Assembly (NCBI RefSeq): GCF_001458735.1
Contig: NZ_CZQA01000014.1
Location: 1 to 64,000 of the forward strand
Direction of reading: 5' to 3'
DNA length: 64,000 nt
Origin: Candidatus Nitrospira nitrosa
GTDB lineage: Bacteria > Nitrospirota > Nitrospiria > Nitrospirales > Nitrospiraceae
The notes beneath the pieces are model-generated. The model saw only the letters and a program-made list of their open reading frames with translations, was not told where the DNA came from and ran no database searches. Below, piece by piece: positions 8,953 to 52,513 of the stretch. The translations under genes and the position numbers were made by a program. Each line of letters begins with the position of its first letter. Positions within the stretch are counted from its first letter, which is position 1.

Positions 8953-9106
8953 CAACAACGGGGAGCCCACTGATTCTCTCGTATATTCTGCTGCCGACAG
9001 ATTGCAGATGGTTTTCAATCTTGCGGTAGTTTCAAGAGCTGTTCGACGATAGGGTAACCGAGCAGTTCACGCGATTGCGAAGAGTTTGCCCTTACGCTCT
9101 GTGAGC

Positions 9107-9784: not shown

Positions 9785-9787
9785 GCG

Positions 9788-10870: not shown

Positions 10871-11369
10871 GCGATTGATCGATTGACGACGACTCTACCC
10901 ACTCTTCTTCTGTCTCTTGTGCCGAGCGATGTTCCTCGCCAGAGCCTACTGCAGCCGTCTTGGCTTCAAGATAGCCTTGCAAAAGAATGGCTGCGGCAAC
11001 ACGATCGACGACTCCTTTACGTTTTCTTCGACTGACATCGGCGGCAATCAATAACTCTTCAGCCGATCGAGTCGTCATCCGCTCGTCCCACATGACGATG
11101 GGGACGGATAAGATCTCACCGAGTCGGTCGACGAACATATGGACCGCCTGAACCGCCGGTCCCTCTTCACCATTGAGTCGTAACGGGAGTCCAATCACCA
11201 CCTCTCGGACATCGTGCGCATTCACCAGCTGTTGAATGTGTGCAAGATCCCGATCCAGCGTCCTCCGTTCCAACGTTTCAAGCGGTTGAGCCGTCCACCC
11301 AAGCTCATCGCTCAATGCCACTCCGATCCGCTTGGTGCCGTAGTCAAGAGCCAAGATCCTAGTTGCCAT
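10785..11369 (-). CDS. ruvX: RuvX/YqgF family Holliday-junction-resolvase-like nuclease
   Basis: This 194-aa RNase H-fold protein is thought to act in 16S pre-rRNA 5' maturation. Catalytic-type residues are in place: Asp9 in LALDYGTKRIGVA, the VVIGLPLRLNG strand, Asp95-Glu96 in MWDERMTT and Asp122 in GVVDRVAAAILLQ. The known domain ends near residue 137; about 57 further residues, rich in Ser, Arg, His and Glu, form an unusual tail whose codons overlap mltG. The tail may simply result from loss of an earlier stop. The gene starts 6 bp after the alaS stop. Confidence 0.92.
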   Translation of the reverse strand: MATRILALDYGTKRIGVALSDELGWTAQPLETLERRTLDRDLAHIQQLVNAHDVREVVIGLPLRLNGEEGPAVQAVHMFVDRLGEILSVPIVMWDERMTTRSAEELLIAADVSRRKRKGVVDRVAAAILLQGYLEAKTAAVGSGEEHRSAQETEEEWVESSSIDQSHDGSWDPHHRRHSRRARRGGRLSNDSMG

Positions 11370-11375
11370 GACAGT

Positions 11376-14012: not shown

Positions 14013-14478
14013 GGACCACGTCCTCACTTCTCTTGAACTCCGTCATCATACGTTCAATCACCTCGTCACTGAAACCCCGCTGATGGAGGAACCGCGCCAT
14101 GTACCCCTGGGCCGATCGCGTCCCCTGATGGGGCATGGCCTGGAGGGCACGGCGCGCAACGATCTCCTCGTTATGACGCTGAAAGACCTCAGTGAGAACC
14201 AGGTCGGTCACGCCATCGGAAATGCCCTTGGTCAGCAATTCCGCCTTCAGCCGTTCCGGCCCCATCGGCTTGGTCGCCAGGCGCTTCTCCACCCATCGCT
14301 GGGCATAGGCACGATCGTCGAGGTACCGGAGGTCCGTCAGGCGGCAAATGGCCTGTTCGATGTGGGGAGGGTCGACCCCTCGTGAGCGGAGAAACCGTTC
14401 GACCTGAGCAACCGTGCGCTCTCGCTGTGCCAAAAAGCGAACCGCGAGCCGGATTACTGCATCCAGGCTTGTGGGCAT
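13999..14478 (-). CDS. recX: regulatory protein RecX
   Basis: This protein of about 159 aa modulates RecA filaments. The RecX three-helix repeats are seen in AVRFLAQRERTVAQVERFLRS, followed by LRYLDDRAYAQRWVE and KPMGPERLKAELLTKGIS. The reading frame is open another 58 codons upstream, but that part overlaps the 3' end of recA and is Arg-rich and unlike RecX, so the ATG at 14478 is preferred. There is no clear ribosome binding site. It lies 31 bp after recA, the classic arrangement. Confidence 0.87.
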   Translation of the reverse strand: MPTSLDAVIRLAVRFLAQRERTVAQVERFLRSRGVDPPHIEQAICRLTDLRYLDDRAYAQRWVEKRLATKPMGPERLKAELLTKGISDGVTDLVLTEVFQRHNEEIVARRALQAMPHQGTRSAQGYMARFLHQRGFSDEVIERMMTEFKRSEDVVHEDE

Positions 14479-14509
14479 GGCACGGGAGCGAGCCCTTGTC
14501 GTCCGCCCG

Positions 14510-15589
14510 TCACCGATGCGCCCGCTTTTCTTCACTTCGCGCAACCGGTTTGTCCTCTTTGGTCTCTTTCCCTTCCGTTTTCTTCTCTCCACGTGCGGGA
14601 ACGCCGGCCGCCTCCCGAAGTTTCTGTTCAACCTCGCGAGCGGCGACGACATTCGTCTTCAGAAACTCTCGAGCCGCGTCGCGTCCCTGGCCGATCCGTT
14701 CGCCGTTATAGGAATACCAGGCACCGGACTTATCGATGATCTTCTTGTCGACCCCCATATCCACGAGCTCGCCGGTTTTGGAAATCCCCTCGGCAAACAT
14801 GATGTCGAACTCCGCCTGACGAAACGGCGGTGCCATTTTGTTCTTGACCACCTTCACGCGGACCCGGCTCCCCATCACGTCCTGACCTTCCTTGATGGAT
14901 TCAATCCGTCGAATATCCAAACGGACGGAGGAATAAAACTTGAGCGCGTTCCCACCCGTCGTGGTCTCTGGATTGCCAAACATGACACCGAGCTTCATAC
15001 GGATTTGATTGATAAAGATGACGGTCGTCAACGATTTTGAGATAGCCCCCGTGAGCTTTCTCAAGGCCTGCGACATCAACCGTGCCTGAAGCCCCATGTG
15101 GGCATCACCCATCTCACCTTCGATCTCAGCCCGCGGCGTCAACGCCGCGACCGAATCGACCACGATCAGATCAATCGCCCCGCTCCGAACCAACGTTTCA
15201 GCAATCTCCAATGCCTGCTCCCCCGTATCGGGCTGTGACACGAGGAGATCATCGGCTTGCACTCCCAATTTCTTGGCATAGGTCAGGTCCAATGCATGTT
15301 CCGCGTCGATAAACGCGGCGACCCCTCCCACCTTCTGTGCCTCGGCAATACAATGCAACGTCATCGTCGTCTTCCCTGACGCCTCCGGGCCAAAGATCTC
15401 AATCACCCGTCCGCGCGGAAGCCCGCCGACCCCAAGGGCAATATCGAGACCGAGCGAACCGGTGGAAATAGCCGGGACATCGACCTTCTCCTCGGCGCCC
15501 AGCTTCATGATCGCCCCCTTCCCATACTGCTTCTCGATCTGGGACAGGGCCAAGTCCAGTGCGCGCTTCTTGTCGTCTTTTTCGGACAT
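14510..15589 (-). CDS. recA: recombinase RecA
   Basis: This 359-aa ATPase drives homologous strand exchange and SOS induction. Walker A is GPEASGKT at 67-74, preceded by [20 protein letters not shown]. Other signatures are [16 protein letters not shown], the L2 loop region [28 protein letters not shown], and an acidic, Lys-rich tail. GAGGAG precedes the ATG. It is the first gene of the six-gene run to deoC. No LexA-type box was recognised upstream by eye. Confidence 0.98.
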
Positions 15590-35066: not shown

Positions 35067-37934
35067 ATGATTACGTATGGACATTTATTCCTGAGGTTGG
35101 AATCTAGGACTCCTACTTCATGGCCTCGATTCCCATCTTTCCCAAAGTTGAGTCCCTGCTTGTCACTTGCCATTCTCTTACTGCATTTAACAAATGGGGT
35201 TCTCACTGTATCGGCGGAAATGCCCATTACGTCATCTGGTTTGAACACGCACATTAGCAGTCCGGTCTCGGTAGATGGGAAGACACAATACGACATTACG
35301 GGTGGGACCAGAGTAGGAGCAAATTTATTTCACAGCTTCGGGAACCTTGATGTTCCTCAAAATACGATTGCAAACTTTCACAACGAGTCCATGCACCCCA
35401 CGGACAATATCCTAGGACGTGTCACCGGCAATAGCGTTTCGGACATTCTCGGTACCATCAAGACCACTGAATTCGGTGGGGCGAACCTCTTTCTTATGAA
35501 TCCAGCCGGGTTCCTATTTGGGCCCAATGCAAGCCTGCATGTCGGTGGAGCCGTTGCGTTCACGAGTGCAGAGTACCTGCGTCTATCGAACGAAGCCCAA
35601 ACTGGATATTTTTATACCGACCCAGCTAACCCAAGCCTCCTCACTCCATGGCCGGTCGCTGCGTTTGGATTTCTGGGTTCAAGTCCAGGAGCAATTACCG
35701 TACAGGGTAGCCAATTGAAAGTGACGGAGGGAGCCAGCCTTTCACTAGTCGGTGGCAACATCATTATCGAGTCTGCGATGACTAACGGGGCAGTCCGCTC
35801 GGCACAACTCTTAGTGCCAAATGGCAACCTTCATCTCGCTACCACGGTATCGCCGGGAGAATTTCCTGCTGATATAAATGCTTTTTCGCTTGTAGAACCA
35901 CTTGCGAATATTGATGGTCATTCATTTGCAGCCTTTGGGGCCATTACACTTACGCCAAACTCAACTGTCAACGTCAGTGGCACAAACACCGTTTCGATCC
36001 GAGGAGGCCACTTTGTCCTAAGTCTGAACGACACGACCCTCAGTACCACTGACAATACGGTAGCGCCAAATTTCATCTCACTAAAACCTACCAGTTTAAT
36101 TATCTCGGCAAATGATGGTTCAATGCCCGGCGCCAACATTCAGATCAGCACAGCAACGCTACAAATGGATCGAGCCGAGATAATTACCCGATCTACCGGG
36201 ATAGGAAACGCGGGAGCTATTGAGGTTCATGCACAAAACTCGATCAACATTACAGACTCTTCAATGTCTTCTGCGAGCGAAGGCCAGAACACCGATGCAG
36301 GGGCAGGAGGGGACATCCTTCTACATGCACCATCTATAGACATAACGGATAGCACGCTGTCCGCTGTTACCGTTGGACCAGGAAATGCTGGCAACATCTC
36401 CCTACGGGCGAATGCCTTACAACTCGTATCCGTCGACCCTAAAGATCTTAAGAGTACAGAAATTAGTGCAACTACCTCCGGACCAGGTCACGGTGGAAAT
36501 ATTTCTATTCTAGGCATCACTGGATCTGGCAGTCGTGTACAAGACGTTACGCTGTCAGGTTTGAGCAGTCTCCGAAGTGAGACTCTGAATGGTACAGGAA
36601 CAGGTACCGGCACCGCCGGGAATATCTCGCTCGATGCCAGGCGGTTGTCGCTCATGGAGAAAAGTATCATCACAACCGCCTCGCGCGACAGTGACCCGAG
36701 CCACACCAACTCCGGTAACGCTGGCAACATCACGCTCAACACAACAGAATCAATTCATATCTCGCAGAGCCTCGTAACGAGTGATGTGAGTGAAGCCAGT
36801 ACAGGAACCGGTGGCCATATTGTAATTACCACCCCGATTTTATTGGTTGAAGATGGGGGCTTCATATCGACAAGTACTACCTCTTCTGGGAACGCGGGAA
36901 CTGTCACAATCAATTCACGCCATATGACGTTGGCTGGTGGAGGACAAGTAACAAGCACGAGTTCGCTTGAAGACCTGATACCTCCTCCAACTGGAGCAGC
37001 CGGCACCGTAATCATCCAGGGTGTCGAAGGCCCTGGAAGTCGCGCAAGTTCTATCAGTATCAGTGGGAAGGGGAGGTCTGGGGTATCAAGTGGGATTGTT
37101 ACCGACACCCAAGGCACCGGTGCAGGCGGGAATATCACGCTCGAAGCTGATCAGGCACAGCTCGATGATGGTGCCCAAATTACAGCAAACAGCTCCGAGG
37201 GGGGAAGTAACGCAGGCAACATCACCATCACCGCTACTAATGGCTTCAGTATGAAGCAGAACAGCAATATCACAACGTCAGTGTCTGAAAATAGTACCGG
37301 GGGGAACTCAGGCGGTGGAAACATTAAAATTACAACCTCACCATCAGCAACCATACATCTGCAAAACAGCACGATCAGCGCCTCGGTCGGTGACGGACGA
37401 GGCGGCGGTGGAAATATCTCCATTGACCCACAACTTATTATTCTTCAGGGCAGCAACATTTTGGCTCAGGCTGATGAGGGAAGAGGAGGTCAAATTTCCA
37501 TTACCGCTGGAGTATTCCTTCCGGATGCTAACAGTGTTATCAATGCAGATTCAGGATCCGGCGTGAACGGAACTGTAACCATTCAATCGCCAACGTCGAA
37601 TTTGAGTGGTACCGTGGGCCAACTGGTATCCAAAACGAGCCCGCCCCAGGCGCTGTTACATAGCCGTTGTGCCGCATTAGTTGGTGGCCGTGAAAGTACG
37701 TTTATTCTTGCTGGCCGTGGCACACTCCCATCCGAACCTGGCGGTTGGCTTCTAAGTCCGCTTACCCTTGCCGGCTCTGAAGCCGACGGCAGCATGATGA
37801 GCAGTGTGGGTCTGCATACGAGAGACAGCAGGAAACTAGAAGCATCACCATTCGTACCTATGCGGCACATTGTCTTCCCAGAATTACTCACTCAGCCTGT
37901 TCCCATAGAGTGGCTGTCGAACTGCAAACCATGA
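35067..37934 (+). CDS. filamentous hemagglutinin-like two-partner-secretion exoprotein (TpsA)
   Basis: The 955-aa protein has an N-terminal signal region and a TPS domain (about 50-300) with FHSFGNLDVPQNTIANFHN, TTEFGGANLFLMNPAGFLFG and PNASLHVGGAVAF, the hallmark of filamentous-hemagglutinin secretion domains. The rest is a beta-helix of many GNAGNI(S/T)(I/L) repeats. Such proteins are exported through a TpsB outer-membrane channel and act as adhesins or surface fibres. No TpsB gene is in the window. The ATG at 35067 has only a weak ribosome binding site; an ATG further in would cut the signal region. Confidence 0.88.
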   Translation: MITYGHLFLRLESRTPTSWPRFPSFPKLSPCLSLAILLLHLTNGVLTVSAEMPITSSGLNTHISSPVSVDGKTQYDITGGTRVGANLFHSFGNLDVPQNTIANFHNESMHPTDNILGRVTGNSVSDILGTIKTTEFGGANLFLMNPAGFLFGPNASLHVGGAVAFTSAEYLRLSNEAQTGYFYTDPANPSLLTPWPVAAFGFLGSSPGAITVQGSQLKVTEGASLSLVGGNIIIESAMTNGAVRSAQLLVPNGNLHLATTVSPGEFPADINAFSLVEPLANIDGHSFAAFGAITLTPNSTVNVSGTNTVSIRGGHFVLSLNDTTLSTTDNTVAPNFISLKPTSLIISANDGSMPGANIQISTATLQMDRAEIITRSTGIGNAGAIEVHAQNSINITDSSMSSASEGQNTDAGAGGDILLHAPSIDITDSTLSAVTVGPGNAGNISLRANALQLVSVDPKDLKSTEISATTSGPGHGGNISILGITGSGSRVQDVTLSGLSSLRSETLNGTGTGTGTAGNISLDARRLSLMEKSIITTASRDSDPSHTNSGNAGNITLNTTESIHISQSLVTSDVSEASTGTGGHIVITTPILLVEDGGFISTSTTSSGNAGTVTINSRHMTLAGGGQVTSTSSLEDLIPPPTGAAGTVIIQGVEGPGSRASSISISGKGRSGVSSGIVTDTQGTGAGGNITLEADQAQLDDGAQITANSSEGGSNAGNITITATNGFSMKQNSNITTSVSENSTGGNSGGGNIKITTSPSATIHLQNSTISASVGDGRGGGGNISIDPQLIILQGSNILAQADEGRGGQISITAGVFLPDANSVINADSGSGVNGTVTIQSPTSNLSGTVGQLVSKTSPPQALLHSRCAALVGGRESTFILAGRGTLPSEPGGWLLSPLTLAGSEADGSMMSSVGLHTRDSRKLEASPFVPMRHIVFPELLTQPVPIEWLSNCKP

Positions 37935-39433: not shown

Positions 39434-40383
39434 CGCACTATTCTCCGTAAATATCCGACAGTCCGTCAGGTCCTTCACGGCTTGGCGATAACGGCGGTCG
39501 CATCGGGGTGAATCCAAGATGCGGCCGATGATAGTGATACCGGTCCAGAAATGCACGCACCTCGCCCTGGAGTGTGGGCAGTTCTTCTACTCGATAGGAG
39601 ATCCACCCCAAGCATTCCTTGCGCAGGGTTCGATTGAAGCTCTCAATATACGCCTGCTCGTTCTTCTTATAGGGACGGGCGATGCGATGTCGTGTACAAT
39701 ACTGGAGCACCTGTTGGGCAAACACGCCTTTGAACTCTGAGCCCCCATCGGTCTGGATGATCTGCACAGGCCCGGTAAAGCGGCGAGTCATGGCTGTGCG
39801 CAAAAACATGGCCCCATCCTCGCTTGTTAGTCCGGTCCGCAGAACGACATCCGCTTCCTTCGTATAGATGTCCACCCCGGTAAAGGCGAAGACCTCGCCA
39901 AAAACCACGGTATCCATCTGAATGACCGCGCGGGGAGCCGTGGCAATCGGCACAACGCCGCGTGGCTGATTGGTCCGGCCCCGAGGCCGTAAGACGTATC
40001 GTTCAGCCAAGATTTCATAGATCTTGGGAACAGAGAGATGGATATGCTGTTCATGAGCCAGAAAGTACTGAATCTTCTGCCCACAGCAGTCGTATTCACG
40101 GGCGCGAATCGCCCAGACAAGGCGTTTGACCGCTCCCGGGACCTGTCGTGCCGGACGTGGCCCCGTCTTGGCCGCAGCATAGCGATCCAGAAAGACAGAG
40201 AGTCCTTCGATTCGAACTGCCTTCAGCCAGAGTCCTATGGTTTCTCGATGGCGCTCAAGTTGGCCCGCGATCGCGGAAACGGAGAGCCCTTGAGTCGCCA
40301 GTTCCGCTGCAAGAATGATCCGAGTTCTTGTGTCCATGTCCAGAGTCTACTCTGGACTGTCGGATATTTACGGCAACAATGCG
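39434..40383 (-). mobile_element. IS481-type insertion sequence, copy 2 (950 bp)
   Basis: The same element as at 25477-26426, in inverse orientation, flanked by a 5-bp direct repeat CAATC (39429-39433 and 40384-40388). The transposase is identical at protein level to copy 1. The two copies enclose 13 kb and could promote its inversion by homologous recombination. Confidence 0.94.
39438..40337 (-). CDS. IS481-type DDE transposase (copy 2)
   Basis: This is a 299-aa protein identical to the transposase of copy 1, with the same HTH, DDE residues and TAG stop close to the element tip. It appears intact. Its likely promoter lies in the 46 bp between the element tip and the ATG, where CAGAGTCTACTCTG forms a near-perfect palindrome just before the start codon. 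Confidence 0.92.
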   Translation of the reverse strand: MDTRTRIILAAELATQGLSVSAIAGQLERHRETIGLWLKAVRIEGLSVFLDRYAAAKTGPRPARQVPGAVKRLVWAIRAREYDCCGQKIQYFLAHEQHIHLSVPKIYEILAERYVLRPRGRTNQPRGVVPIATAPRAVIQMDTVVFGEVFAFTGVDIYTKEADVVLRTGLTSEDGAMFLRTAMTRRFTGPVQIIQTDGGSEFKGVFAQQVLQYCTRHRIARPYKKNEQAYIESFNRTLRKECLGWISYRVEELPTLQGEVRAFLDRYHYHRPHLGFTPMRPPLSPSREGPDGLSDIYGE

Positions 40384-40547: not shown

Positions 40548-40623
40548 GGCGGTGTAGCTCAGTTGGTAGAGCAGCGGACTCATAAGCCGCGGGTCACCCG
40601 TTCAATCCGGGTCACCGCCACCA
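40548..40623 (+). tRNA. tRNA-Met (CAT)
   Basis: The 76-nt gene folds as a full cloverleaf: acceptor stem GGCGGTG (40548-40554) with CACCGCC (40613-40619), D-arm AGCTC..GAGC, anticodon stem GCGGA/TCCGC-like around CAT at 40581-40583, T-arm with GTTCAATCC, and encoded CCA at 40621-40623. The CAT anticodon and body fit elongator methionine; tRNA-Ile with lysidine also uses CAT and cannot be excluded. It is not initiator, as the first pair is G-C. Confidence 0.93.
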
Positions 40624-40722: not shown

Positions 40723-42123
40723 TTACTGGGCTATCTTTGACGAGTCCCATGTATGAATCACGACTCGCTGACGCTGCCGGACAACGCCCTGTATATTCGT
40801 GAGTGTCGTACCATTGCCCAGCACAACTGCAGACTGCCGCAGATCCCAACTACCCTCCTCATGTTCACCCATGGCCGCCATCAATGCACAGCCCGCCTCA
40901 GACCAGGCTTCTGCCGGGCTTCGCCAGCGGCCTGTACGAACATCCGTCGGTTGATACGGATAGGCAACGTACCAGGATACTCCTGGTAAACGTCGACCGA
41001 TCCGTTGAGCCGCATCCGGATCGAAATACATAGCCGGTACAAACACCTTCTGGCCAGATGCAGACCCGAGAAGATGGAATCGCTTCTCCACCTGTGTCAA
41101 TGGTGCGAGTAGCAACCATGTAGTATTGGGACGAATGGTGCTTAATTGATCAAGATGGGCTTCATTGAAATGGACCCGTCGCATTTTCAGCTCGTTTCTC
41201 ACGAAGTCTACAATCTCTGATGTCGAAAGTCCGCTCGCCGTGGTGAGAACGGTCACGGCCCTTGCACGGTCTCCTAGTGCTCGGTCAAGGAGCGCGCCAA
41301 CCTGACTCGTTAGTCCAGGCAAAGGAAATGCGATACCTGGATTCTCGGGGAGATCTAGTGGTGTAACCGGCAGTGCGGTCACAACGGGCCATTCCATTGC
41401 CGCATTGATGTATTGCCGCTCCCACCCCACAATGTACGGCGCCAAAACAGCAGAGACCCGTTCATGTGCAATCTGAGTCTTCATCTGTGATAATGCATCG
41501 TCTGGATCAGCGTAGCGAATGATTTCAAACGGTGGAAACCGCGTGGTAGTGCCGATGGATGGACACGAAAGCAATCGGTCGCCGATTTCTCGCGCAAACG
41601 CTATGGCGACGGAATTGGGTAAGAGACCCAGTACAACCTTCGTCGTTACGTCCTCACTAACGGAACCTTCACTGATTTGTGTAAGGTATGAGAGTAAGGC
41701 GTCTGTCTCATCCTGACTGAGATCGAACCGAGGCATTGCTGGATCGAGCGATCTTCCACTGGAAGCCACCCCCTGATGGATAGCTCGACTAAATGTCAAT
41801 CGGTTGTACGGAGGCCTCGCCCCACCGGCACGACGAGGTGCGAACACTTTGCTGAGAGTATGCCAACGAATATCAGGCGCATGGATAAACGCTTCACCGC
41901 CACCTCGCGCATTCGCGCCATGGCAAGATACGCAGGCTACGGCAGCTCCTCGAAGATCTAGACTGCCGTGAATACGCCCGCCTATTTCTCTGCCATCACG
42001 TCCGATTCCTTGTTCAAAAATACTCTGGCCGAGTTCCGAGTCAGGAGCGTCGGCACCGGCACACAGAGACCACCCCACCACGAATAGAAAGGTGACTGTC
42101 CATACACAACAAGACCTTGCCAT
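40723..42123 (-). CDS. cytochrome c fused to a periplasmic-binding-protein-like domain
   Basis: This 466-aa exported protein has a signal peptide (VTFLFVVGWSLCAGADA), a monoheme class I-like cytochrome c domain with CVSCH (Cys64, Cys67, His68) and a candidate axial Met130 in LDPAMPRFDL, then about 300 residues resembling a type I solute-binding fold (VVLGLLPNSVAIAFAREIGD, VSAVLAPYIVGWERQYINAA). Such a fusion could link ligand sensing or docking to electron transfer; the ligand is unknown. It is the last gene of the copper-oxidase operon, 11 bp after the SCO gene. It may accept electrons from the oxidase system or pass them on. Confidence 0.8.
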   Translation of the reverse strand: MARSCCVWTVTFLFVVGWSLCAGADAPDSELGQSIFEQGIGRDGREIGGRIHGSLDLRGAAVACVSCHGANARGGGEAFIHAPDIRWHTLSKVFAPRRAGGARPPYNRLTFSRAIHQGVASSGRSLDPAMPRFDLSQDETDALLSYLTQISEGSVSEDVTTKVVLGLLPNSVAIAFAREIGDRLLSCPSIGTTTRFPPFEIIRYADPDDALSQMKTQIAHERVSAVLAPYIVGWERQYINAAMEWPVVTALPVTPLDLPENPGIAFPLPGLTSQVGALLDRALGDRARAVTVLTTASGLSTSEIVDFVRNELKMRRVHFNEAHLDQLSTIRPNTTWLLLAPLTQVEKRFHLLGSASGQKVFVPAMYFDPDAAQRIGRRLPGVSWYVAYPYQPTDVRTGRWRSPAEAWSEAGCALMAAMGEHEEGSWDLRQSAVVLGNGTTLTNIQGVVRQRQRVVIHTWDSSKIAQ

Positions 42124-42134
42124 GAAGTATTCCG

Positions 42135-42752
42135 TTATTGTTTGGCGGCCACTCGTTGCAGTTCCGCGTAGATAAACTCTGGGGTCGCATCGGGCCTGAT
42201 TTTCACCCAGTGGGCTCGAGAGGCATTACCGGCAAGGAATAGGGATTTATGATCGGCCGGATCATCAGACCACTGCCCTAACCGACTCAGCAGCGGCTTC
42301 ATGACCTCTTGATGGCCTGACAAAAACCTCCATCCGGGATGATCTGCCTGATGTTTCTTCGCAAAAGCCTTCAGCGTATCAGGCGTATCTCGAAGTGGAT
42401 CAGATGAGAGCGACAAGAACAACACCGAGTGACCAAACTCATCACCAAATCGGTCCTTCACCTGTCCTAACAAACGAGTAATCAACGGGCAGGCGTCCCG
42501 GCACTCGGTATACACCACATTGATGAGGACGATATGATTGTATAGGAGATCACTGACAAAGCGATGCAGGACACCGTCCTGATCGAACAACTCTGCATCA
42601 CCGAAGTAGGTACGCGCCTTTTGTAGACGCACGTCCTCTGAACTTGCTGCAGTATCGAGCCCGCCTGGCCCAGTCGGAGCCAGTAGAAACGCCACTACGA
42701 TCAGAAGTATACGCCACCACGACATCCTTACCGAGGTTTGAGTGTTATACAT
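42135..42752 (-). CDS. SCO1/SenC/PrrC-family copper chaperone (SCO-a)
   Basis: The 205-aa product has an N-terminal membrane anchor or signal (ILLIVVAFLLAPTG) and a thioredoxin-fold SCO domain. The copper site is complete: Cys84 and Cys88 in TECRDAC and His168 in PADHKSLFLAG. SCO proteins deliver copper to, or reduce cysteines at, Cu centres of exported oxidases. The ATG at 42752 is preferred because GGGGA lies before it. It is 15 bp after a second SCO gene. Since the operon encodes a giant copper oxidase, that is the likely client. Confidence 0.93.
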   Translation of the reverse strand: MYNTQTSVRMSWWRILLIVVAFLLAPTGPGGLDTAASSEDVRLQKARTYFGDAELFDQDGVLHRFVSDLLYNHIVLINVVYTECRDACPLITRLLGQVKDRFGDEFGHSVLFLSLSSDPLRDTPDTLKAFAKKHQADHPGWRFLSGHQEVMKPLLSRLGQWSDDPADHKSLFLAGNASRAHWVKIRPDATPEFIYAELQRVAAKQ

Positions 42753-42767
42753 ACACAAGTTCCCCAG

Positions 42768-43343
42768 CTACTGCGCCCCAACCATCAGCAACGCCGTCTT
42801 GGCCACGTCATGAGGATCAGGAATGCCAACCCAGCGCTGCCACTTCCCTGTTCGAAGATTGCCGGCCATCATGATCGGCGGATGATCCTCCGGCCTACCG
42901 AATACCGGAACATTGAACGCGCGGAGCGCTTGTTTCACATCAGGAACCGTCCCGGTCAGCCAATACCAATGGGCCGTTGTGGCGAATCGACCCGCATAGT
43001 CCTTGAGCTGCACAGGCGTATCATTAGCAGGATCGACTGTTAAAGAGACCAAAACCAGTTCATCACCTAGGCGATCTCGCACATCCTTTTCCACTTGCGC
43101 CATGATGGCACTGAGGATGGAACAGCTCGTTTTACAGGACGTGAAGACAAAGTCAATCACAACAGTGCGTCCCTCCAACAGCCTGTCAAGCAGTTGGGCA
43201 CGGTTCTCTTGATCAACGAGAGCCACTGTTGGCAGCCGTACCGTCGTCGATTCTCCCGCAACCGTAACGCGGATAAGAATTAGGCCCTGCAGGCACAGGA
43301 CGCTCAGACAGAGAATCCTAAGAAGCCAGATGCTCGGTATCAC
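42768..43343 (-). CDS. SCO1/SenC/PrrC-family copper chaperone (SCO-b)
   Basis: This 191-aa SCO protein has an N-terminal hydrophobic segment (IWLLRILCLSVLCLQGLILI) and the copper residues Cys70 and Cys74 in TSCKTSC and His154 in PEDHPPIMMAG. It differs clearly from SCO-a, so the two are old paralogues and may do different jobs, for example copper loading and thiol reduction. The start overlaps the stop of the upstream YVTN gene as ATGA. It is predicted to face the periplasm. Confidence 0.93.
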   Translation of the reverse strand: MIPSIWLLRILCLSVLCLQGLILIRVTVAGESTTVRLPTVALVDQENRAQLLDRLLEGRTVVIDFVFTSCKTSCSILSAIMAQVEKDVRDRLGDELVLVSLTVDPANDTPVQLKDYAGRFATTAHWYWLTGTVPDVKQALRAFNVPVFGRPEDHPPIMMAGNLRTGKWQRWVGIPDPHDVAKTALLMVGAQ

Positions 43344-45277
43344 GGATAGTTCTCATTACCGTCAGTATTAGGTGTGGAGGCTTCCACAATGAGAGTCGAG
43401 AATGTTGCTTCAACTGCTTGAGAGCCGCCAATGTGAACATAGTACCCGCCTGGCTCTGAGAGTGTTCCCTCTCCAACCATCTGGCCGGCATTGTTCTGAT
43501 CGACCTTCAGAGGCCATCGAAGACTTCTCCCTCCTCGTGTCGGGACTACTCGCAGTTCGAATACGTCCCCCATCCTGGCACGTGAGTGCGGGCCATCCTT
43601 TCGACGAACGCGCATTGTAATGGGCTGCCCCACCACGGCACGGTGCACCGGATCTCCCAGCCATTCAAATGCGACTAGTTCCGACAATTCATTTACTGGG
43701 GCACGATCGACGTGCAAGCCGATGCATTCCCTTATCTTCGGAGCATCACTCGCGATGGCCAGGACCATCCGCCCAGCCGACGGCAGTTTCACGACGGCGG
43801 AGTATTCTCCCGGACCGACCTGTCGAAGTCCTCGTTGAATCGCAAGGGCCGCCATCGGCGTATGGCCGTAGGTGCGAAGACCGGAGTCCGGTGCGTTCAT
43901 CCCTTCCATATAGTGATAGACCGTACGTTCCGTAGGAGACGCGAGAAAGGCCCCGCTTCTGTTCAGAGTAAGACCCATCGTAGAGGCAATCGGTAGGCCT
44001 TCTTTCGTCTGGGCGAGAATACCGGACCCAGCCGGGATATATTGCGGCGCAGGATGCGGCTTATCGAGGGCGGCTAGCGAAACCATGGCGACTTGTTCAC
44101 TCGCCAGACTTCGCACATACACATATTGATCGGAGAACATCACATCATACGGCTGACCTGAGACCGTGATGGCATGAACCGGTTGCCCAGTCCCTGCATT
44201 CAGGACATGCACACGATGCTGGCTCGGATTGACAATGAGCACGTAGCGCTTGTCGGGCGAGAGTTTGGCTGGCCCGATACCGGGTTGAAGGGCCACGCTA
44301 TCGATCGCCTGACCTTGTGCGGCATACCGATGCACCCGACCGTGTTTGCCATCGACTACCCAGACCGTACTGTTCGAGGGAATGCTCATGACACTCAACG
44401 GTTCACCAGGCACCGTCATCGTACGGATGATGGCGAACGTCGTGGCATCAACCACGGTAACACTTCCGGCCTGGCGGTTCGTCACATACACATACCGCCC
44501 CTCTTCACTAAACGCAAACTCATGGTGACCACCTGGCAACGGAAGACTCTTTACCAACTGGTTTGTGACAGTATCAATAATACTGACTCCCTCCTGCCGT
44601 CCGGCCTTGCCGGCCGCAATATGCCCGACCCAGAGCAACCGTTCATCAGGCGCCAGGGCAAGCCGAGTGGGAAGACCAGGAACGGGCACATGAGTAAGCA
44701 CCTGTAACGTCTGAAGATCCGCAATCGCCACGGCAGGCTCTTCGGCCAGCCCGACAAAGAGCTTGGCATCATCCGATGTTTTAATCCAATCGAACCCCCT
44801 GCCTTTTAATTTGAGTGAACTGTACAGGCTGGTTCGGCCGGCAAAGCTGACTGAAGGATCGAGCACCGACACACTTGGCTCGGCATCCAACGTCAAAACA
44901 TAGTAGCCGGTGAGGTCGAGAAGTGGACGTTGCAAGAGATCGCCACCAAGATAGCCCGCAACGCGTTGACCACAAGCCGGCATGGCACCGGATGCGGTCG
45001 ACATCGCGTGATCCAGCCAGGCCCCAACGTTCCAGTTATTCAACGGATGACCATCGGCCTGGCGCGTGACTGCCATGCGGATTCTGATCAGCTGATCAGC
45101 GTGGATTCTCGCAGGGGCGCTCTGCTCTGTGACCGGGTCAATTAAAAACTGAACCCGCAGGCCTTCTTGCTCGATGGTCTTCTTGAGATAACTGGCGTGA
45201 GAAACAGCCGGCCCTACTCCGAAGAGCAGGGCCATTAGAACAAGAAGAATCTCTCGTCTTATGGAGCAAGTCTGCAT
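43340..45277 (-). CDS. exported YVTN-type beta-propeller protein
   Basis: The 645-aa product has a signal peptide (REILLVLMALLFGVGPAVS) and a beta-propeller of the YncE/YVTN type (about 130-430), with blades such as LFVGLAEEPAVAIADLQTLQ, YVYVTNRQAGSVTVVDATT and YVLIVNPSQHRVHVLNAGTG. The N-terminal about 110 residues and the C-terminal about 200 residues are extra beta-rich domains. Propellers of this kind often bind metals or protein partners in the periplasm. It overlaps the multicopper oxidase gene by 19 bp and the SCO-b gene by 4 bp, so it is fixed in the operon. Confidence 0.88.
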   Translation of the reverse strand: MQTCSIRREILLVLMALLFGVGPAVSHASYLKKTIEQEGLRVQFLIDPVTEQSAPARIHADQLIRIRMAVTRQADGHPLNNWNVGAWLDHAMSTASGAMPACGQRVAGYLGGDLLQRPLLDLTGYYVLTLDAEPSVSVLDPSVSFAGRTSLYSSLKLKGRGFDWIKTSDDAKLFVGLAEEPAVAIADLQTLQVLTHVPVPGLPTRLALAPDERLLWVGHIAAGKAGRQEGVSIIDTVTNQLVKSLPLPGGHHEFAFSEEGRYVYVTNRQAGSVTVVDATTFAIIRTMTVPGEPLSVMSIPSNSTVWVVDGKHGRVHRYAAQGQAIDSVALQPGIGPAKLSPDKRYVLIVNPSQHRVHVLNAGTGQPVHAITVSGQPYDVMFSDQYVYVRSLASEQVAMVSLAALDKPHPAPQYIPAGSGILAQTKEGLPIASTMGLTLNRSGAFLASPTERTVYHYMEGMNAPDSGLRTYGHTPMAALAIQRGLRQVGPGEYSAVVKLPSAGRMVLAIASDAPKIRECIGLHVDRAPVNELSELVAFEWLGDPVHRAVVGQPITMRVRRKDGPHSRARMGDVFELRVVPTRGGRSLRWPLKVDQNNAGQMVGEGTLSEPGGYYVHIGGSQAVEATFSTLIVEASTPNTDGNENYP

Positions 45278-48200
45278 GAAGAACGTAGCAGTTCAGGGGT
45301 GAAGCGAATGTTTGTTGAGTTTTCACGCTGTACAACTCTAACAATACTCCAAAGTCCGCTAGTAATACCAAACCCTCCATGATCTTGCCAGAGATAGTCC
45401 CCTGGTACTGCGTTGTCGCCACCAGCGGACTTCAACACGACATCAAAATGCGCCATGGGCGTAAGACTCTCTTGACCACCCATTCCCATCTGTAACGCAC
45501 TCTCGCCAATACACTTGGCTGGGACGCCCCATGTCTCATGACGAGGCCCATTCGGATGCTTCTTGTTGACCGCTTCCGCGAGATACGGATCGCGCGCCCA
45601 ATTATGTCCATGGAGCGAAAAGGTTGTCGCTCTCCCAACTCCCGTGGGCAACAAGGCACGAACTCTTAACTCAGTGCCAGCAAAAACTGTTGCAACCGGA
45701 GTATACGGATCCCCAACATTCGGTTCAGAATGGAGAGACGTTCCTCCCGTGTCACAACATCGATTACTAAACGCTTGCCACGCATGCATGACCCCACCAA
45801 ACCCTTCCTTTCCAAATGGCGAGTCAGGAGATAACCCGAACCTAAACCACATAGGTTCGGTGCCGTAGTTAATGGCCATCTGTCCAGAGTCGTGTGCATC
45901 TTCCGGCGCCGTATTCTGAGGCGCTTCGTTTGCACCGGTTTTTTCTGCCGCCAAGCTTTGCACCGCATCTCCGTTGGCATAGCGAAGATTTAAACCTTTT
46001 TGATGGACGAGAACCGTCTCACGAAATCGCTTGATGCCATTTCTAGAAGACGCTTCCTTGAGTAAAGGATATTGCACTGTGGTCGTGGCTCGACTTTTCC
46101 GAATTTGACCAGCCTGCTGCCTATCAGCCACCAAATCATCCACAGGTTTATCCACCCACTCGGGGGTCCAGCTTGAGCGTTCTGGCTCAACCACGAGAGC
46201 TCCCACCGCACCCTTTTGTCCTTGTTTGATTCGATCAGGTGGAGTCAAATTTGTCGCACCAAATTCAACGGGGACAAATCGACACTCTTTACTGCGATCA
46301 GGAGCCTGATGAGGCTCTTTCCGCGCTACCACAAAATCGGTGTCGGTTGAATCAAAGTTAAAGAATCCTGCCTTCAGCACCATATTCTGCCAGGGAAAGA
46401 CCTCCTCAGGCCGTTGGGCAAGACCCGCATCGAGCCCTTTGGGATTGAGCTCAGTCAGAATCCTGAGCTCGGTGGCTAGTTCGCCAAACACACCAGCTTG
46501 GTCCAGTTTTTCCAACCTAGGTTTAATCGTACTAAATTGCTGCGGTTGAGCGTCCACCACTAAATTCAGATTATTCTTAAACTGGTTCTGCAGAGCCAGG
46601 TTGTCCTGAAGGACTATCTGACTAGTGGCAAGCTGAGCTGACTGAGGAATATTGACCGAGGCTTTCGGTTCTGCGCCCACTGCGCGAGCCCCAAGTCGTT
46701 TATTGGGTGCCACCGACCGTTGCCGAAGTTGTCCTCCATCCTGCTTCATGGACATGGTACTGAGTGCCAACGACATCGCCTCCTGAAGTACGGGGATTTG
46801 ACTCTGGCTCAGTCCGGTAACCTGGAGAATCCTGTCTTGATATTTCGAGACTAATACGTTTGACAGCAGCTGTGGATCTACCTCGAGGGTGCCAAACGGT
46901 GAAAACCTCAGCATGTCTATCTTCGTCAATGCATTTTTGAGATCGACAACGACCACACGCGCATTTGGGTCCGGCAAACATTCTTCATGAGCACCGACTC
47001 TCTCGACAGTACCCGCATACCATTCATAGATCTTGTGATGGCCCGGCGGCACGGTGCTTACTAGATTAATTCCGACATTATTCCCGTCATGTTTATTCGT
47101 ATCGTACAGCACCATTTGTGGATGCAATCCAATATGATTAGAGGGGCGTATGAGGTTATTATTAAACGACACCATACTGGAACCAGGGAGACCTCGGTCC
47201 CGTATCTGGATTCCTGACAACGACGTGTAGCCCTCTAAATCAGGCATCCACGAGCGAAAGAATGGAAGCCGGTTCTCTAATGTTGCTCGAATACACTCGC
47301 CTGCGGCGGCCCTTAGGACAACGGGCTCTAGAGGATGATCCGCACGTAACTTACCCGTCACTGGGTCAAGATCATCCTTGTATACAATTAAAATGGCCGT
47401 AGGGTCATGGAGCGGGCCAGCTTGACCTGCCCCCTTGTTCACCAACGTGGTTCTTGGGTTGTAGACCAATGTTCCGCCATTTTGATTGAGTCTTGCGTTT
47501 GGAGCAGCACCAGGGATGGTTATTCCAGGAACAGGATCCAAAACCTGATTGGCCAAAACCGCCACTAAATGATAGGGACGAACAGACGCTGACTTAGGAC
47601 AACTACCTTGCAGAAACGTACTGGGCACTTTGATTCCATTAACTACCTCCTGAAGGTTACTTTCTTCTAGCAGTAATTTAGGCTTAAGCCCTTCTACCTC
47701 TGAGTTGATTCGAGCGTTATTGTTGTTCGTCTTCTTTGCTACTTGAAATTTCGGCAACCCTCCCAAGTCAAATCTCGGAGGAGCAAGATCCTCTTCTCGC
47801 TCAGATATTTGAAGCAGTGACGCAATATTGAGATTGAGTGGGCTCACAGGAGCCTGATACCGCCTGATGGAACTACGGAGAATCCCCCAAACACCGCTCC
47901 ACAGTCCATCCTGGCTCGTATCCACCGTATAAAGCCGATCAACCAATCCTCCCTGGGAAAATGCCCCCTTTTCCGTTATTCGGTCGGTAAATGTGAATTG
48001 CTCAGAAAGGCCGGTATTTTGTGAATTGCGCCAGCCTGAATGGGGCGCCTGGCCGAAGCCAGACCCCGCTTGAATCCAGGTTAAGGAATTGATCGTTCCG
48101 TTGTGCTCGTGTTCATGAGCCCCCCCCTGGACCTTCACCTTTACCAAGTCTCCTGCATAGGTGCGCATGTGAGGTGTAAAGGGGTCACCAGGAAATATCC

Positions 48201-51200
48201 CATTTGTCAAAGCCGGATATGGGCGTTGTACCACCCAATTCGATCCGGTCTTCACCAGGGTCTTGCCCAACCGGGTATTCAGCTCCGGAATTTTCCGATC
48301 AGCTCTCGTTTGGAAAGCAAATGCAAGATCTCCAGGGAAACCAGTGGCTTGCACCTTTGTCCCAGGATCGTACACCCGTGATGCGATTGGCTCATTTCGG
48401 TAATTGACGACCATCATACCCACATCGTCAGCTGAAATCGATTCAGGACAAGGGCGTTTGGGAGCCAAGGGATTGCCATACACCGAACCAACAAGTTTTT
48501 CCTCATTGGGACCACCAGGGCATGTCGCAGGGTACTCAAAGATATCGACTGGCACGCCACTGCCAACATTGGTCTTGCTGGCCGGCTTTCGGTACGAAGG
48601 ATGGATGGCATAGCGAAATGATTCGGTCATAGATTGGTCATGCTTGACCATCAGATCGGCGCCAGGACCATCTACTTTTATAAATCGCAGGTCCTTTTCT
48701 AACGTGTCCGGACTATTGATGCGTTTTCCATCCTCATCCACGCCGACAAAGACGCCCTTCTCATACGCATGCTGAAAATCGCCGAATTGCAAGAAAAACT
48801 CTCGATGCGATTCATCCCGACCATCTTTATCGACATCCAATGGAAGAATTTCACCGAACTTGTTTCTTGCCTTGCTTCGGATTCTTGCTTGCCATGTTGT
48901 GGGACCACCATCCGGTCTGGTGTACAGTGCGACTCCCGTTTCATTGTGAACCCATTCAGAATTGGGCGGCTCGGTCAGCATCGTGGCATAGAGCCCCAGC
49001 TGCTGGTGAGTCGATGGCCCGAGATGGTCGTGGGTAAACGTGATTCCAAGACCACGATGCAGCAATCCTTTATTCACAATAGGGTCTGAGAACCATCTCT
49101 GAATGGTTGTGCGAGCGCCCAACCAATCGCACTTTCCAGGAATACCCCAGCCCTTTTCAAACTCTCTTAAAGTGGCTGCGCTCGCCCATGCGTTTTTACA
49201 TTCCTCGTCGGTAAGCTGCAACACAGCCGCCCCACTTTGAAAAGCTGGGTTTTTCCCGAAATACGGATGCGCTGTAGGGACAAGGGGATTAGGATTGCCA
49301 ACTGGAGGAGGAACCGGATTTGCGCTCTGTTTGTTCCATTCATTGATCGCATGAATGCGTTCGCGCACCGCTCCTGGCGAAAAGGTGCCGTCTTCATAAT
49401 TAAATCCGTTGGCACCTCCATCAGCTGATGTGAGATCCCATTTAGGCAAGTGGATGTGTTGTCCGATCACATCGGTTGGTGTCGTGATCTGATAATCATC
49501 CAAATAGAATTCCTTGGGAACAAGATTCGTGTGCTGGTACACGGCGCAATCATACGTGTTCATCCGCAAGACCAACGGCTCCGGTGGACGCTGCCTGGTC
49601 AATAACCCAGGAACGTCCTCCCAGAGAGTGAGAATGCGTTGCTGGGGATAGTGATAGCCAACCTTATTGAACACCACATCCAATTGCAGATTCGCGCCCT
49701 TGTACACACGAGGGTTATTCCCTCCAAATTCTATCCCTCCAAGGAGGTCCAATTGAGACGAAAAGTACTCCTCAGGTCCCTTATACCTTCCGCCAAAGAA
49801 TTCCCCATGCTGCCCCTTCAACAAACTCCGACCTTTATCGTCAATACAAGGATCGTTGTACGGCGCACCAGGAGTTGGAGGGGCTCCATTTGTAATAAAC
49901 TCACTACCCGACGGCACGCCACTCATGTCGATCTTACTGGTTGGATGAATACGTTGTGCATGAAACTTCATTGCCAACTGTTCAAGCGGAGTACCAGTTT
50001 CGTCGTAATACAGAGGTTTCGCTTTCTCGATATCCTTGGTAGCTGTAAACCTAGTGATCTCCGAGTGATCGTGCCCACCTGACGAATAACCCGCTAAAGC
50101 ATGTCTTGGCAGTCCTCCGTTATGTCCACCAGCCGATAGATCCATATCCAACGGTGGAGTCGTTGGGCGAGACCCCATAGAAACAGGATCTGCTTGTCCA
50201 GCACGCTGAGACACCCCTGCCACCCAAAAAGGGAACCCTGGATTGCCATGTTCACTCCCTTTCCCTGCGGGTGATACCTCTGCTACAGATCCATGTGTTT
50301 GGCTGTCATCCCCGATGCGCGGTTTGACCCTCACGGATACTGGCATCGGCGCCATGCCTTTACCAGGAAGTGGCACAATGGCAGGTATTGGAGTTCCCGC
50401 GACAATTTCCCCATCCGGTAAGGCTCGCGCCTTCTCAGATGGCCTGCCGTGCATTAACCCAAATTGCTCGGTGTGATAACCGGTCCTCGTATCGCTGACG
50501 GCCAAGTGTGTGCCGGCTTCAAAGACATCATGATTGCGCCACATGTACCACATACCCTGCGCAAAATGCGGGTAGAAGTGGCAGTGAAAAATGGCATCTC
50601 CAACGGTCTTATTGCGATTACCCGAGCCACCAAAGGCAATCTCATAGGTGTAACCAGAACCCGGCCCAAGCCCTTGCGCATCAATGTAGTTGGAATTGTC
50701 GTCGTTTGGGTTAAACAACCACTGATGGTTGTGGAGATGGAAAATATGCTGCTCTTTTCCTGAATGGATATTCCGGAATTTGACAAAATCGCCGATGTAG
50801 CTATGGTGAAGATTGGCAGGATCATGCGGATAATAGGCCTCGGTCGCCCAGTTCTTCTGTACACAGAACTTGTCAAACATGCCCTTATTCGGCCACGTGC
50901 CAGCTTCCTTTTCAGCCGGGGTAGTAGGGAGAAATTCCGGCTGACATCGATACGTCTCCATGTTGGCCGGCTGGTCCACAATCATTGCAGCATCACCCAC
51001 CGCAAATGAGCTCAAGAAGAACTCCTCATACGCACAATCCAAACAGTCGTGCATGGGACCGGAATGCAGGCGATTGGCAATGATCTCCGCTCCAATACCT
51101 CCTGATCCATAATTGATCATGAACGCATCACGCACGCCATGCAGCGTATGGCCCAATTCCGGATGGTCGAAGAAATACGGATACGATTGAGTCGCTGCAT

Positions 51201-52473
51201 TCTCATCATGAAAGACTGATACAAACTCTCGAAATGGCTCTAGCCGATTAGGCAAAGTTGGGTTGCGAGCCCACGGTGCCGCGGGATGAATATCTTGTTC
51301 GATTGGATACGTCGTGTGGGGAAATGATCCATCAGAGTTAGGCCCAACTATAATGGCATTAATATCTCCATGAATAATCCGATTGTTCTGAACCATGTTC
51401 AAAACTGGAAGACCTGACTTCCCTTCATTCGACCATGGCGAACCTGCCGGATATTGGGCTTCATAGTTGACAACCGGCTGGCCAGTAGGCGTCACACCCG
51501 TCGTTGCCAAACGCATCTCCTCTTCAGTCACTTGGGCACGATAAAACCTTGCCTGCTTCGGCTGCACTGCCACGGCACCAAATAACCCGACGCCACTATT
51601 GCCAGCCGTACCTTCCCCCCCAAACACCGCGCCACCATTACTGACAAGATACGCCCCTTCTTTAGGAGCAAAAAAGCAATACTCTTTTGTTTCTCCTGGC
51701 CTCGCAAGGCTATTGTTATTCTTCCCAACATAGGAGCTGTCGTCGTCAATGTTTCTCACTAGTTCCAACCCTTGTGGATGAAACCCAACCACTCGGCTTG
51801 CAACTTGATCGTCGATGTGATTGAGCCGCTGATCATCAGGCGTACCGATGGGATCCTTAGCTGCATGCTCCATCGGATGATCGACGTTGGGCAACGGGTC
51901 TGGAAACGAATTAAATGGATTCCCTGGTGTGTGGTGCGGTGGCACCGCCTTGTCCTCAAGCAAATTTGTAAACCGCACCTTGAGATAGCCACCCTCGGCG
52001 ACTCGCAACACCAACGGCCTTGGCCGTAGATCGGGCCGCAATGCAATGTCGCGGCTTGTGGTACGCTTCACAACTTCGCCGAATAATTCCTCCCCTTTCG
52101 TCGAATAATCGAGGGATTTATTAGTTTTTAAATCAATAAGATCATGCCTCAGCGCATACATCATCCAATTGACATTCTGCGCACCAAGACGATTGAACAC
52201 CATCGGATGGTCAATCGCCACGACATCGGCTCGAAGTACATCAGCCGGACAGGAGGCGACAGGTGGTTTGATCACAATCGGTGGCTTTATGATCCCAGGT
52301 ATTGTTACCCCTGGCTTATTAAGGCCAGCTTCGGGGTGTGCAGCTCGACCTGCGTTAATCTGTTTGCTTACTGGCGCCGTGGCTCCTGTTGGAGGCTCCG
52401 CAAAAACAATCCCCGCGAAGGTCAGTGCCATGAAGACCGCCACACCCAGATTCGGATAGGAACGCGCCGTCAT
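45259..52473 (-). CDS. giant multicopper oxidase, MnxG/MofA-type
   Basis: This 2404-aa exported protein has a signal peptide (LGVAVFMALTFAGIVFA) and many cupredoxin domains. Copper ligands are plainly visible: HIFHLHNHQW (His576, 579, 581, 583), the type 1/type 3 motif HCHFYPHFAQGM (His630, Cys631, His632, His636, Met641) and FTHDHLGPSTHQQLGLY (His1148, 1150, 1156). Further His clusters are GGAHEHEHNG and LHGHNWARDPY in the second half. DHPMVFNRLGAQNVNWM near the N-terminus and the HDHxGPSTHQ motif are typical of the very large Mn(II)-oxidase-type proteins MnxG, MofA and McoA. The second half lacks an obvious Cys-containing copper motif; its equivalent reads QDHGGFGITSGLW. Its substrate (Mn(II) or another metal) is inferred. 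GAAGGAGG precedes the ATG at 52473. Confidence 0.9.
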   Translation of the reverse strand: MTARSYPNLGVAVFMALTFAGIVFAEPPTGATAPVSKQINAGRAAHPEAGLNKPGVTIPGIIKPPIVIKPPVASCPADVLRADVVAIDHPMVFNRLGAQNVNWMMYALRHDLIDLKTNKSLDYSTKGEELFGEVVKRTTSRDIALRPDLRPRPLVLRVAEGGYLKVRFTNLLEDKAVPPHHTPGNPFNSFPDPLPNVDHPMEHAAKDPIGTPDDQRLNHIDDQVASRVVGFHPQGLELVRNIDDDSSYVGKNNNSLARPGETKEYCFFAPKEGAYLVSNGGAVFGGEGTAGNSGVGLFGAVAVQPKQARFYRAQVTEEEMRLATTGVTPTGQPVVNYEAQYPAGSPWSNEGKSGLPVLNMVQNNRIIHGDINAIIVGPNSDGSFPHTTYPIEQDIHPAAPWARNPTLPNRLEPFREFVSVFHDENAATQSYPYFFDHPELGHTLHGVRDAFMINYGSGGIGAEIIANRLHSGPMHDCLDCAYEEFFLSSFAVGDAAMIVDQPANMETYRCQPEFLPTTPAEKEAGTWPNKGMFDKFCVQKNWATEAYYPHDPANLHHSYIGDFVKFRNIHSGKEQHIFHLHNHQWLFNPNDDNSNYIDAQGLGPGSGYTYEIAFGGSGNRNKTVGDAIFHCHFYPHFAQGMWYMWRNHDVFEAGTHLAVSDTRTGYHTEQFGLMHGRPSEKARALPDGEIVAGTPIPAIVPLPGKGMAPMPVSVRVKPRIGDDSQTHGSVAEVSPAGKGSEHGNPGFPFWVAGVSQRAGQADPVSMGSRPTTPPLDMDLSAGGHNGGLPRHALAGYSSGGHDHSEITRFTATKDIEKAKPLYYDETGTPLEQLAMKFHAQRIHPTSKIDMSGVPSGSEFITNGAPPTPGAPYNDPCIDDKGRSLLKGQHGEFFGGRYKGPEEYFSSQLDLLGGIEFGGNNPRVYKGANLQLDVVFNKVGYHYPQQRILTLWEDVPGLLTRQRPPEPLVLRMNTYDCAVYQHTNLVPKEFYLDDYQITTPTDVIGQHIHLPKWDLTSADGGANGFNYEDGTFSPGAVRERIHAINEWNKQSANPVPPPVGNPNPLVPTAHPYFGKNPAFQSGAAVLQLTDEECKNAWASAATLREFEKGWGIPGKCDWLGARTTIQRWFSDPIVNKGLLHRGLGITFTHDHLGPSTHQQLGLYATMLTEPPNSEWVHNETGVALYTRPDGGPTTWQARIRSKARNKFGEILPLDVDKDGRDESHREFFLQFGDFQHAYEKGVFVGVDEDGKRINSPDTLEKDLRFIKVDGPGADLMVKHDQSMTESFRYAIHPSYRKPASKTNVGSGVPVDIFEYPATCPGGPNEEKLVGSVYGNPLAPKRPCPESISADDVGMMVVNYRNEPIASRVYDPGTKVQATGFPGDLAFAFQTRADRKIPELNTRLGKTLVKTGSNWVVQRPYPALTNGIFPGDPFTPHMRTYAGDLVKVKVQGGAHEHEHNGTINSLTWIQAGSGFGQAPHSGWRNSQNTGLSEQFTFTDRITEKGAFSQGGLVDRLYTVDTSQDGLWSGVWGILRSSIRRYQAPVSPLNLNIASLLQISEREEDLAPPRFDLGGLPKFQVAKKTNNNNARINSEVEGLKPKLLLEESNLQEVVNGIKVPSTFLQGSCPKSASVRPYHLVAVLANQVLDPVPGITIPGAAPNARLNQNGGTLVYNPRTTLVNKGAGQAGPLHDPTAILIVYKDDLDPVTGKLRADHPLEPVVLRAAAGECIRATLENRLPFFRSWMPDLEGYTSLSGIQIRDRGLPGSSMVSFNNNLIRPSNHIGLHPQMVLYDTNKHDGNNVGINLVSTVPPGHHKIYEWYAGTVERVGAHEECLPDPNARVVVVDLKNALTKIDMLRFSPFGTLEVDPQLLSNVLVSKYQDRILQVTGLSQSQIPVLQEAMSLALSTMSMKQDGGQLRQRSVAPNKRLGARAVGAEPKASVNIPQSAQLATSQIVLQDNLALQNQFKNNLNLVVDAQPQQFSTIKPRLEKLDQAGVFGELATELRILTELNPKGLDAGLAQRPEEVFPWQNMVLKAGFFNFDSTDTDFVVARKEPHQAPDRSKECRFVPVEFGATNLTPPDRIKQGQKGAVGALVVEPERSSWTPEWVDKPVDDLVADRQQAGQIRKSRATTTVQYPLLKEASSRNGIKRFRETVLVHQKGLNLRYANGDAVQSLAAEKTGANEAPQNTAPEDAHDSGQMAINYGTEPMWFRFGLSPDSPFGKEGFGGVMHAWQAFSNRCCDTGGTSLHSEPNVGDPYTPVATVFAGTELRVRALLPTGVGRATTFSLHGHNWARDPYLAEAVNKKHPNGPRHETWGVPAKCIGESALQMGMGGQESLTPMAHFDVVLKSAGGDNAVPGDYLWQDHGGFGITSGLWSIVRVVQRENSTNIRFTPELLRSSCRLAP

Positions 52474-52513
52474 AAAATCCTCCTTCACCAAACCAACTAA
52501 CCCATCCTGCATG

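Follow-up and report, generated by a model that had tools for sequence, protein, structure and literature searches.

Our study examined a five-gene operon of Candidatus Nitrospira nitrosa, led by the gene for an MnxG-type multicopper oxidase (MCO), on a stretch of 64,000 nt (positions 1 to 64,000 of contig NZ_CZQA01000014.1, assembly GCF_001458735.1) that is referred to in its entirety as the window. The minus strand between 52473 and 40723 holds all five open reading frames (ORFs), with the sizes and near-contiguous spacing given in an initial annotation of this DNA, and the ORFs agree with the family matches (MnxG, YVTN, PF02630 twice and PF00034) as to place and order:

45259..52473, minus strand: MnxG-type MCO, long-clade variant, 2404 aa (NF041487, PDB 9bxa_A, trees)
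43340..45277, minus strand: YVTN beta-propeller protein, predicted to be exported, 645 aa (TIGR02276 YVTN repeats)
42768..43343, minus strand: SCO-a, GTG start, 191 aa (PF02630; C70xxxC74 and H154)
42135..42758, minus strand: SCO-b, TTG start, 207 aa (PF02630)
40723..42123, minus strand: cytochrome c fused to a type-I periplasmic binding-protein fold, 466 aa (PF00034)

In gene order the junctions are a 19-nt overlap, a 4-nt overlap, a 9-nt gap and an 11-nt gap, which upholds the annotated joining of all five genes by overlaps or short gaps. An in-frame ATG at 52512 is an alternative start for the oxidase and would give 2417 aa. Export signals were assessed by eye only, from the N-termini, and we infer that all five proteins are exported. 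The G+C content of the operon is 52.5 %, compared to 54.3 % in the window, a gap too small to argue from.

The oxidase and its partner proteins

The annotation of the first protein as an MnxG-type MCO held. It matches the NCBIfam family NF041487 (MnxG) with an E value of 0, the solved MnxG 9bxa_A aligns to it (E 2.2e-55) with the histidine/copper motifs in register, and it does not group with an unrelated enzyme class; no Pfam family matched it. Judged by these matches, the protein is an MnxG homologue, and its NF041487 score puts it outside the curated equivalog. All 12 positions expected to bind the mononuclear and trinuclear copper (H576, H579, H581, H630, C631, H632, H636, M641, H1006, H1008, H1148 and H1150) are identical in 105/105 rows of an oxidase alignment that includes some duplicates. 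The role of each of these residues as a copper ligand was assumed from laccase-type enzymes, and motif D matches what we take to be the canonical HCHxxxHxxxxM pattern. The four motifs, whose ligands are those conserved throughout the alignment, and the largest single addition to the length of the oxidase are located as follows:

50725..50748, minus strand: copper motif C, H576-x2-H579-x-H581 (HIFHLHNH)
50551..50586, minus strand: copper motif D, HCHFYPHFAQGM, residues 630-641
49450..49458, minus strand: copper motif A, H1006-I-H1008
49024..49032, minus strand: copper motif B, H1148-D-H1150
46354..46995, minus strand: stretch of 214 aa (residues 1827-2040), lacking in at least six of the seven shorter MnxG proteins compared

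The size of the oxidase alone is not new, as a 2013 paper (PMC3600357) already reported six-domain homologues from prokaryotes with lengths of 1217-2681 aa.

The propeller is 46-51 % identical to its counterparts in Methylomonas, Xanthomonas and Nitrosomonas and 35 % identical to that of another Nitrospira locus (L059). The two SCO proteins are distinct, as had been annotated, with SCO-a finding its best match in the first SCO (SCO1) and SCO-b in the second (SCO2) of all five relatives compared; on these matches, they are orthologues of the first and second SCO, respectively. The SCO-a ligands C70, C74 and H154 are invariant in 20/20 alignment rows, as are the equivalent three residues of SCO-b. 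No Pfam copper-resistance family was matched by any of the five operon proteins at E 0.1.

In the cytochrome, the PF00034 domain covers residues 63-150 with a C64xxC67H68 heme motif and M130, and C64, C67, H68, M130 and P131 are invariant in 29/29 rows. The second domain had no Pfam match. A structure model (mean predicted local distance difference test score, pLDDT, 83.5) gave residues 158-466 a type-I periplasmic binding-protein fold, for which a VIA fold search returned 4m88 (Z 21.0, root-mean-square deviation 3.9, 293 aligned) and, as the tied top row (Z 21.1), a taste receptor with the same fold; Foldseek matched 3td9 (E 8.5e-8). Searched by sequence against the PDB, the cytochrome gave weak heme-domain matches only (E 0.4 and 0.67). 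The model thus bears out the annotated fusion of a cytochrome c to a binding-protein-like domain, and this fusion protein has a single match within its own genome.

Gene order and the long-MnxG clade

An alignment of ten oxidases was used to scan named bacterial and archaeal genomes, which yielded 424 relatives. The best 80 were kept, 61 of them from Pseudomonas, and the 73 of these with at least 5 kb downstream were treated as informative. Gene order was called by profile search of stop-to-stop open frames, using propeller, SCO and cytochrome profiles built from blastp matches in the very loci surveyed. Oxidase, propeller, SCO, SCO and cytochrome were found on one strand and in this order in 70 of the 73 informative loci; the exceptions were one locus with a single SCO (L075) and two with the propeller only (L101 and L131). 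The arrangement is not due to chance, since it recurs to this extent, and the expectation that the five genes would be found together elsewhere was borne out. A further 20 stretches from the same phylum, one of them from the window's own genome and some duplicating named loci, comprised three complete five-gene sets, four ended by contig ends, four with the propeller, one SCO and a cytochrome (encoded on the opposite strand in two of them), five with the propeller and without SCO or a complete cytochrome (in one of these a cytochrome match of 82 aa was present), and four with none of the oxidase's partners.

Phylogenetic inference, with no identified MofA or McoA sequence in the trees, placed the window oxidase as sister to that of the uncultured Nitrospira RBC044 (L061) within a 14-row clade of long MnxG proteins, with a Shimodaira–Hasegawa approximate likelihood-ratio test (SH-aLRT) value of 100. 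The clade also holds Nitrosomonas, Methylomonas, an uncultured proteobacterium, Lysobacter, Xanthomonas and four other Nitrospira. In these trees it is separate from Pseudomonas MnxG, again well supported (SH-aLRT 100). Nine long-MnxG operons of this clade have the same five genes as the window, namely those of Nitrosomonas (L064, L068 and L070), Methylomonas (L067), Lysobacter (L066 and L069), Xanthomonas (L060) and Nitrospira (L059 and L063). Over the best aligned piece, the window and L059, L060, L067 and L068 are 55-62 % identical in the MCO and 32-36 % in the cytochrome. The ORF that follows the cytochrome gene of L091, called SurA from its place and look, served as the query for a SurA-type gene. 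Of the 86 records searched by tblastn, 59 have a match adjoining the cytochrome gene; in the window and in 9/9 complete long-clade loci there was no match (E 1e-3). No description of the long-MnxG clade was found in the literature searched, although one may exist elsewhere.

These results bear directly on the claim that the operon may be an undescribed system, which had been made on the understanding that known manganese-oxidase loci combine a large oxidase with either a SCO-like or a cytochrome-like protein and not with both plus a propeller. Neither the claim nor its premise survived. In Pseudomonas putida GB-1, the putative mnxG operon listed in PMC11409713 has all of these components. An undescribed metal-oxidising respiratory system specific to Nitrospirota was rejected because the operon build is already in print (PMC11409713 and PMC8218464) and the genes co-occur in order in 70/73 informative loci. 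The separation of the long clade from Pseudomonas MnxG, the 214-aa stretch lacking in shorter MnxG and the lack of a SurA neighbour speak for such a system, whereas the sharing of the clade with Proteobacteria and the published build speak against it, and we give it next to no probability.

Probable insertion site and host genome

The operon is patchily distributed. At E ≤1e-3 the window oxidase has a match in 77 of the 79 genomes of the genus, but in many of these it is no more than a weak one, to an open frame of about 1600 aa; a match above 1700 bits was found in seven of the 79, the window's own genome included. The feature that borders the operon is:

40548..40623, plus strand: tRNA-Met, edge of the block missing in near relative G266 (ARAGORN, synteny)

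In G266 the flank shares 95.2 % identity with the window across 11,039 nt, and the distance between the tRNA-Met and the upstream flank is 0.84 kb, compared to 12.3 kb including the operon in the window; the G266 contig ends at the tRNA-Met. In another genome (G091) this distance is 0.36 kb, with both flanks present and the operon block missing. In G342 (RBC044) the oxidase adjoins the same upstream flank as in the window. A third arrangement was seen in G412 (L216, about 8556-15072), where about 6.5 kb of other sequence lies between the same upstream flank and the tRNA-Met, and the tRNA-Met site may therefore be a recurrent insertion place. No integrase-like gene was noticed within the block, where the family-library searches covered the five operon proteins only. 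Just beyond the tRNA-Met, an insertion sequence (IS)-like element at 39438-40373 carries an rve_3 integrase-core ORF and perfect 20-nt inverted repeats (39445-39464 and 40354-40373). Further on lies a gene (35067-37934) for a 955-aa protein with a two-partner secretion (TPS) domain, which we take to be of the filamentous-haemagglutinin type.

The operon was likely acquired by exchange between lineages, because G266 is without the whole 12.3-kb block and a tree of the four accessory genes (22 rows, the tested group having been chosen after the oxidase tree had been viewed) rejected a single Nitrospira clade (approximately unbiased, AU, test, p 0.0082). The oxidase tree placed two Nitrospira groups apart (SH-aLRT 96-97) without rejecting a single clade. 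Proteobacteria and Nitrospira are the probable partners in this exchange, through one or more transfers in either direction.

Ammonia monooxygenase (AMO) family matches over cut-off were found in the host genome for PF02461 at two places and PF04744 at one, and in none of 14 control genomes, which suggests that the host is a complete ammonia-oxidizing (comammox) Nitrospira. The PF02461 (amoA-type) places, C1:66037-66744 and C11:106121-106828, have equal scores, and PF04744 (amoB-type) occurs only on C1. The same genome carries other large oxidases. A second MnxG-like oxidase of 1725 aa at C11:176598-181500 (L054; NF041487, 699 bits) has a counterpart in G342, and no propeller, SCO or cytochrome was found within the stretch taken around it. 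Three large MCOs at C9:495000-534900 (L167 and L168; open frames of 1588, 1613 and 1657 aa) share the 12 ligand positions of MnxG. Multiple copies were also seen elsewhere, with Gammaproteobacteria bacterium QDN-W01B-4577 harbouring two MnxG-type oxidase genes on the L083 contig and a third in L085.

Predicted function and comparison with known systems

Taken together, we consider it probable that the locus is an MnxG-type manganese-oxidase operon with the five-gene build of GB-1, carried by a Nitrospira with amoA/amoB-type genes. Its most likely function would be exported Mn(II) oxidation with O2. The SCO pair may supply the mononuclear and trinuclear sites with copper, or maintain cysteines in the reduced state for them, and the oxidase would then take single electrons from Mn(II), through Mn(III) to Mn(IV) oxide, and hand them to O2. 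The propeller could act as a scaffold or partner, and the cytochrome c/binding-protein fusion could carry electrons towards the oxidase or away from it, or could help in its assembly. MnxG has been recorded in Nitrospira metagenome-assembled genomes (MAGs) from a sand-filter inoculum (PMC12070406). Nitrifier MAGs from a subsea tunnel are also on record as carrying putative MoxA, MnxG and McoA, for which PMC11995701 stresses that activity is untested.

Several observations weigh against this assignment. The oxidase scores 1966 bits against NF041487 and does not reach the curated cut-off of 3100, which the MnxG of P. putida ASAD exceeds (3909 bits) and the oxidase of Nitrosomonas L068 (2008 bits) does not; because of this score, the function of the oxidase may have shifted. 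The solved Bacillus MnxG has HCHLYPAFGIGM where the window has HCHFYPHFAQGM, with Ala at the position of H636, and an AlphaFold model of oxidase residues 69-1200 (mean pLDDT 46.3) was too poor for copper-site geometry. A single -24/-12 pattern for sigma-54 gave no matches in the window, compared to 2.25 expected by chance. Among the loci compared, GB-1 was represented by other P. putida strains. All trees were quick searches; in the oxidase tree a single Nitrospira clade was not rejected (AU p 0.0536), and in the accessory-gene tree 12 of the 22 rows were of unusual residue composition, and a long branch (1.61) leads to the other Nitrospira pair. No report of manganese oxidation by a member of the long clade was found in the literature searched, and PMC11995701, for the nitrifier families that it treats, notes that manganese oxidation has not been shown and warns of MCO promiscuity.

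That same promiscuity, along with the score below the equivalog cut-off and the two SCO copper proteins of the operon, favours a different use of the enzyme, in which its main substrate would be another one (such as Cu(I), Fe(II) or phenolics) and its role the handling of copper or oxidative stress, with manganese oxidation at most a side activity. We regard this as unlikely, as the whole operon build equals that of the GB-1 manganese-oxidase operon and none of the five proteins matched a Pfam copper-resistance family at E 0.1.

The cytochrome raises the question of energy conservation, in which electrons from Mn(II) would pass through the oxidase and the cytochrome c fusion to the respiratory chain and thus provide an extra donor for a nitrifier. 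The cytochrome is a regular member of the operon, the host has amoA/amoB-type genes, and MCOs in Mn(II) lithotrophy are stated to require the transfer of their electrons to a periplasmic carrier, such as cytochrome c (PMC9040806). However, Pseudomonas operons have the same cytochrome type, so its presence is not special to lithotrophs and is no argument for lithotrophy. MCOs also normally pass electrons to O2 themselves, and we hold this variant to be very improbable. A broader scenario, that nitrifiers (Nitrosomonas and amo-bearing Nitrospira) and a methanotroph have in common a distinct long-MnxG operon, spread by horizontal exchange, with which they oxidise Mn(II), and that in some of them the cytochrome fusion passes electrons to the respiratory chain, is speculative and in our view improbable; if true, one cassette would link the removal of ammonia and manganese, for example in water filters.

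For the probable manganese-oxidase operon, the claim of a new system is replaced by a testable one, in which the long-MnxG operon is a candidate for what connects nitrifiers with the removal of manganese, a connection already suspected. As a patchy and probably exchanged cassette, it also offers close relatives with and without it for direct comparison. The role of the partners deserves study in GB-1, where genetics is available, because the YVTN protein, both SCO proteins and the cytochrome stay with MnxG across lineages.

The closest published counterpart is the putative mnxG operon of GB-1, which Table 4 of PMC11409713 gives as mnxG, a 40-residue YVTN propeller, SCO1/SenC, SCO1/SenC, an amino-acid ABC substrate-binding protein with a cytochrome c domain, and SurA, and which is stated there to be conserved in strains DSV-1 and MS-1; a similar six-gene operon is described for Pseudomonas OF001 (PMC8218464, Fig. 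2 legend). In GB-1, manganese removal is reported to become about tenfold slower when mnxG is deleted, and oxide formation to be lost in the double mutant of mnxG and mcoA (PMC11930936). The window matches the first five gene types and their order (PMC11409713), but differs from the P. putida-type operon in having no SurA neighbour as a sixth gene, and in its oxidase, which is 2404 aa compared to the 1944 aa listed for PputGB1_2447 of GB-1 (PMC3600357) and 46 % identical to MnxG of P. putida ASAD, the stand-in for GB-1. The MnxG of the Bacillus Mnx complex (9bxa, which from its length appears to be that of Bacillus PL-12) is a homologous oxidase with copper motifs in the same order, although it is 1227 aa long and reads HCHLYPAF compared to HCHFYPHF in the window. 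The mof operon of Leptothrix discophora (mofA, mofB and mofC) likewise combines a large MCO with a cytochrome c partner, whereas its mofB product is a Mip-type protein and no propeller is named in the account of the operon in PMC8218464. The operon in Nitrospira therefore belongs to a known kind of system, here in a host where it was less expected, and the long clade, which nitrifiers share with a methanotroph and Lysobacteraceae, adds modestly to this system type.

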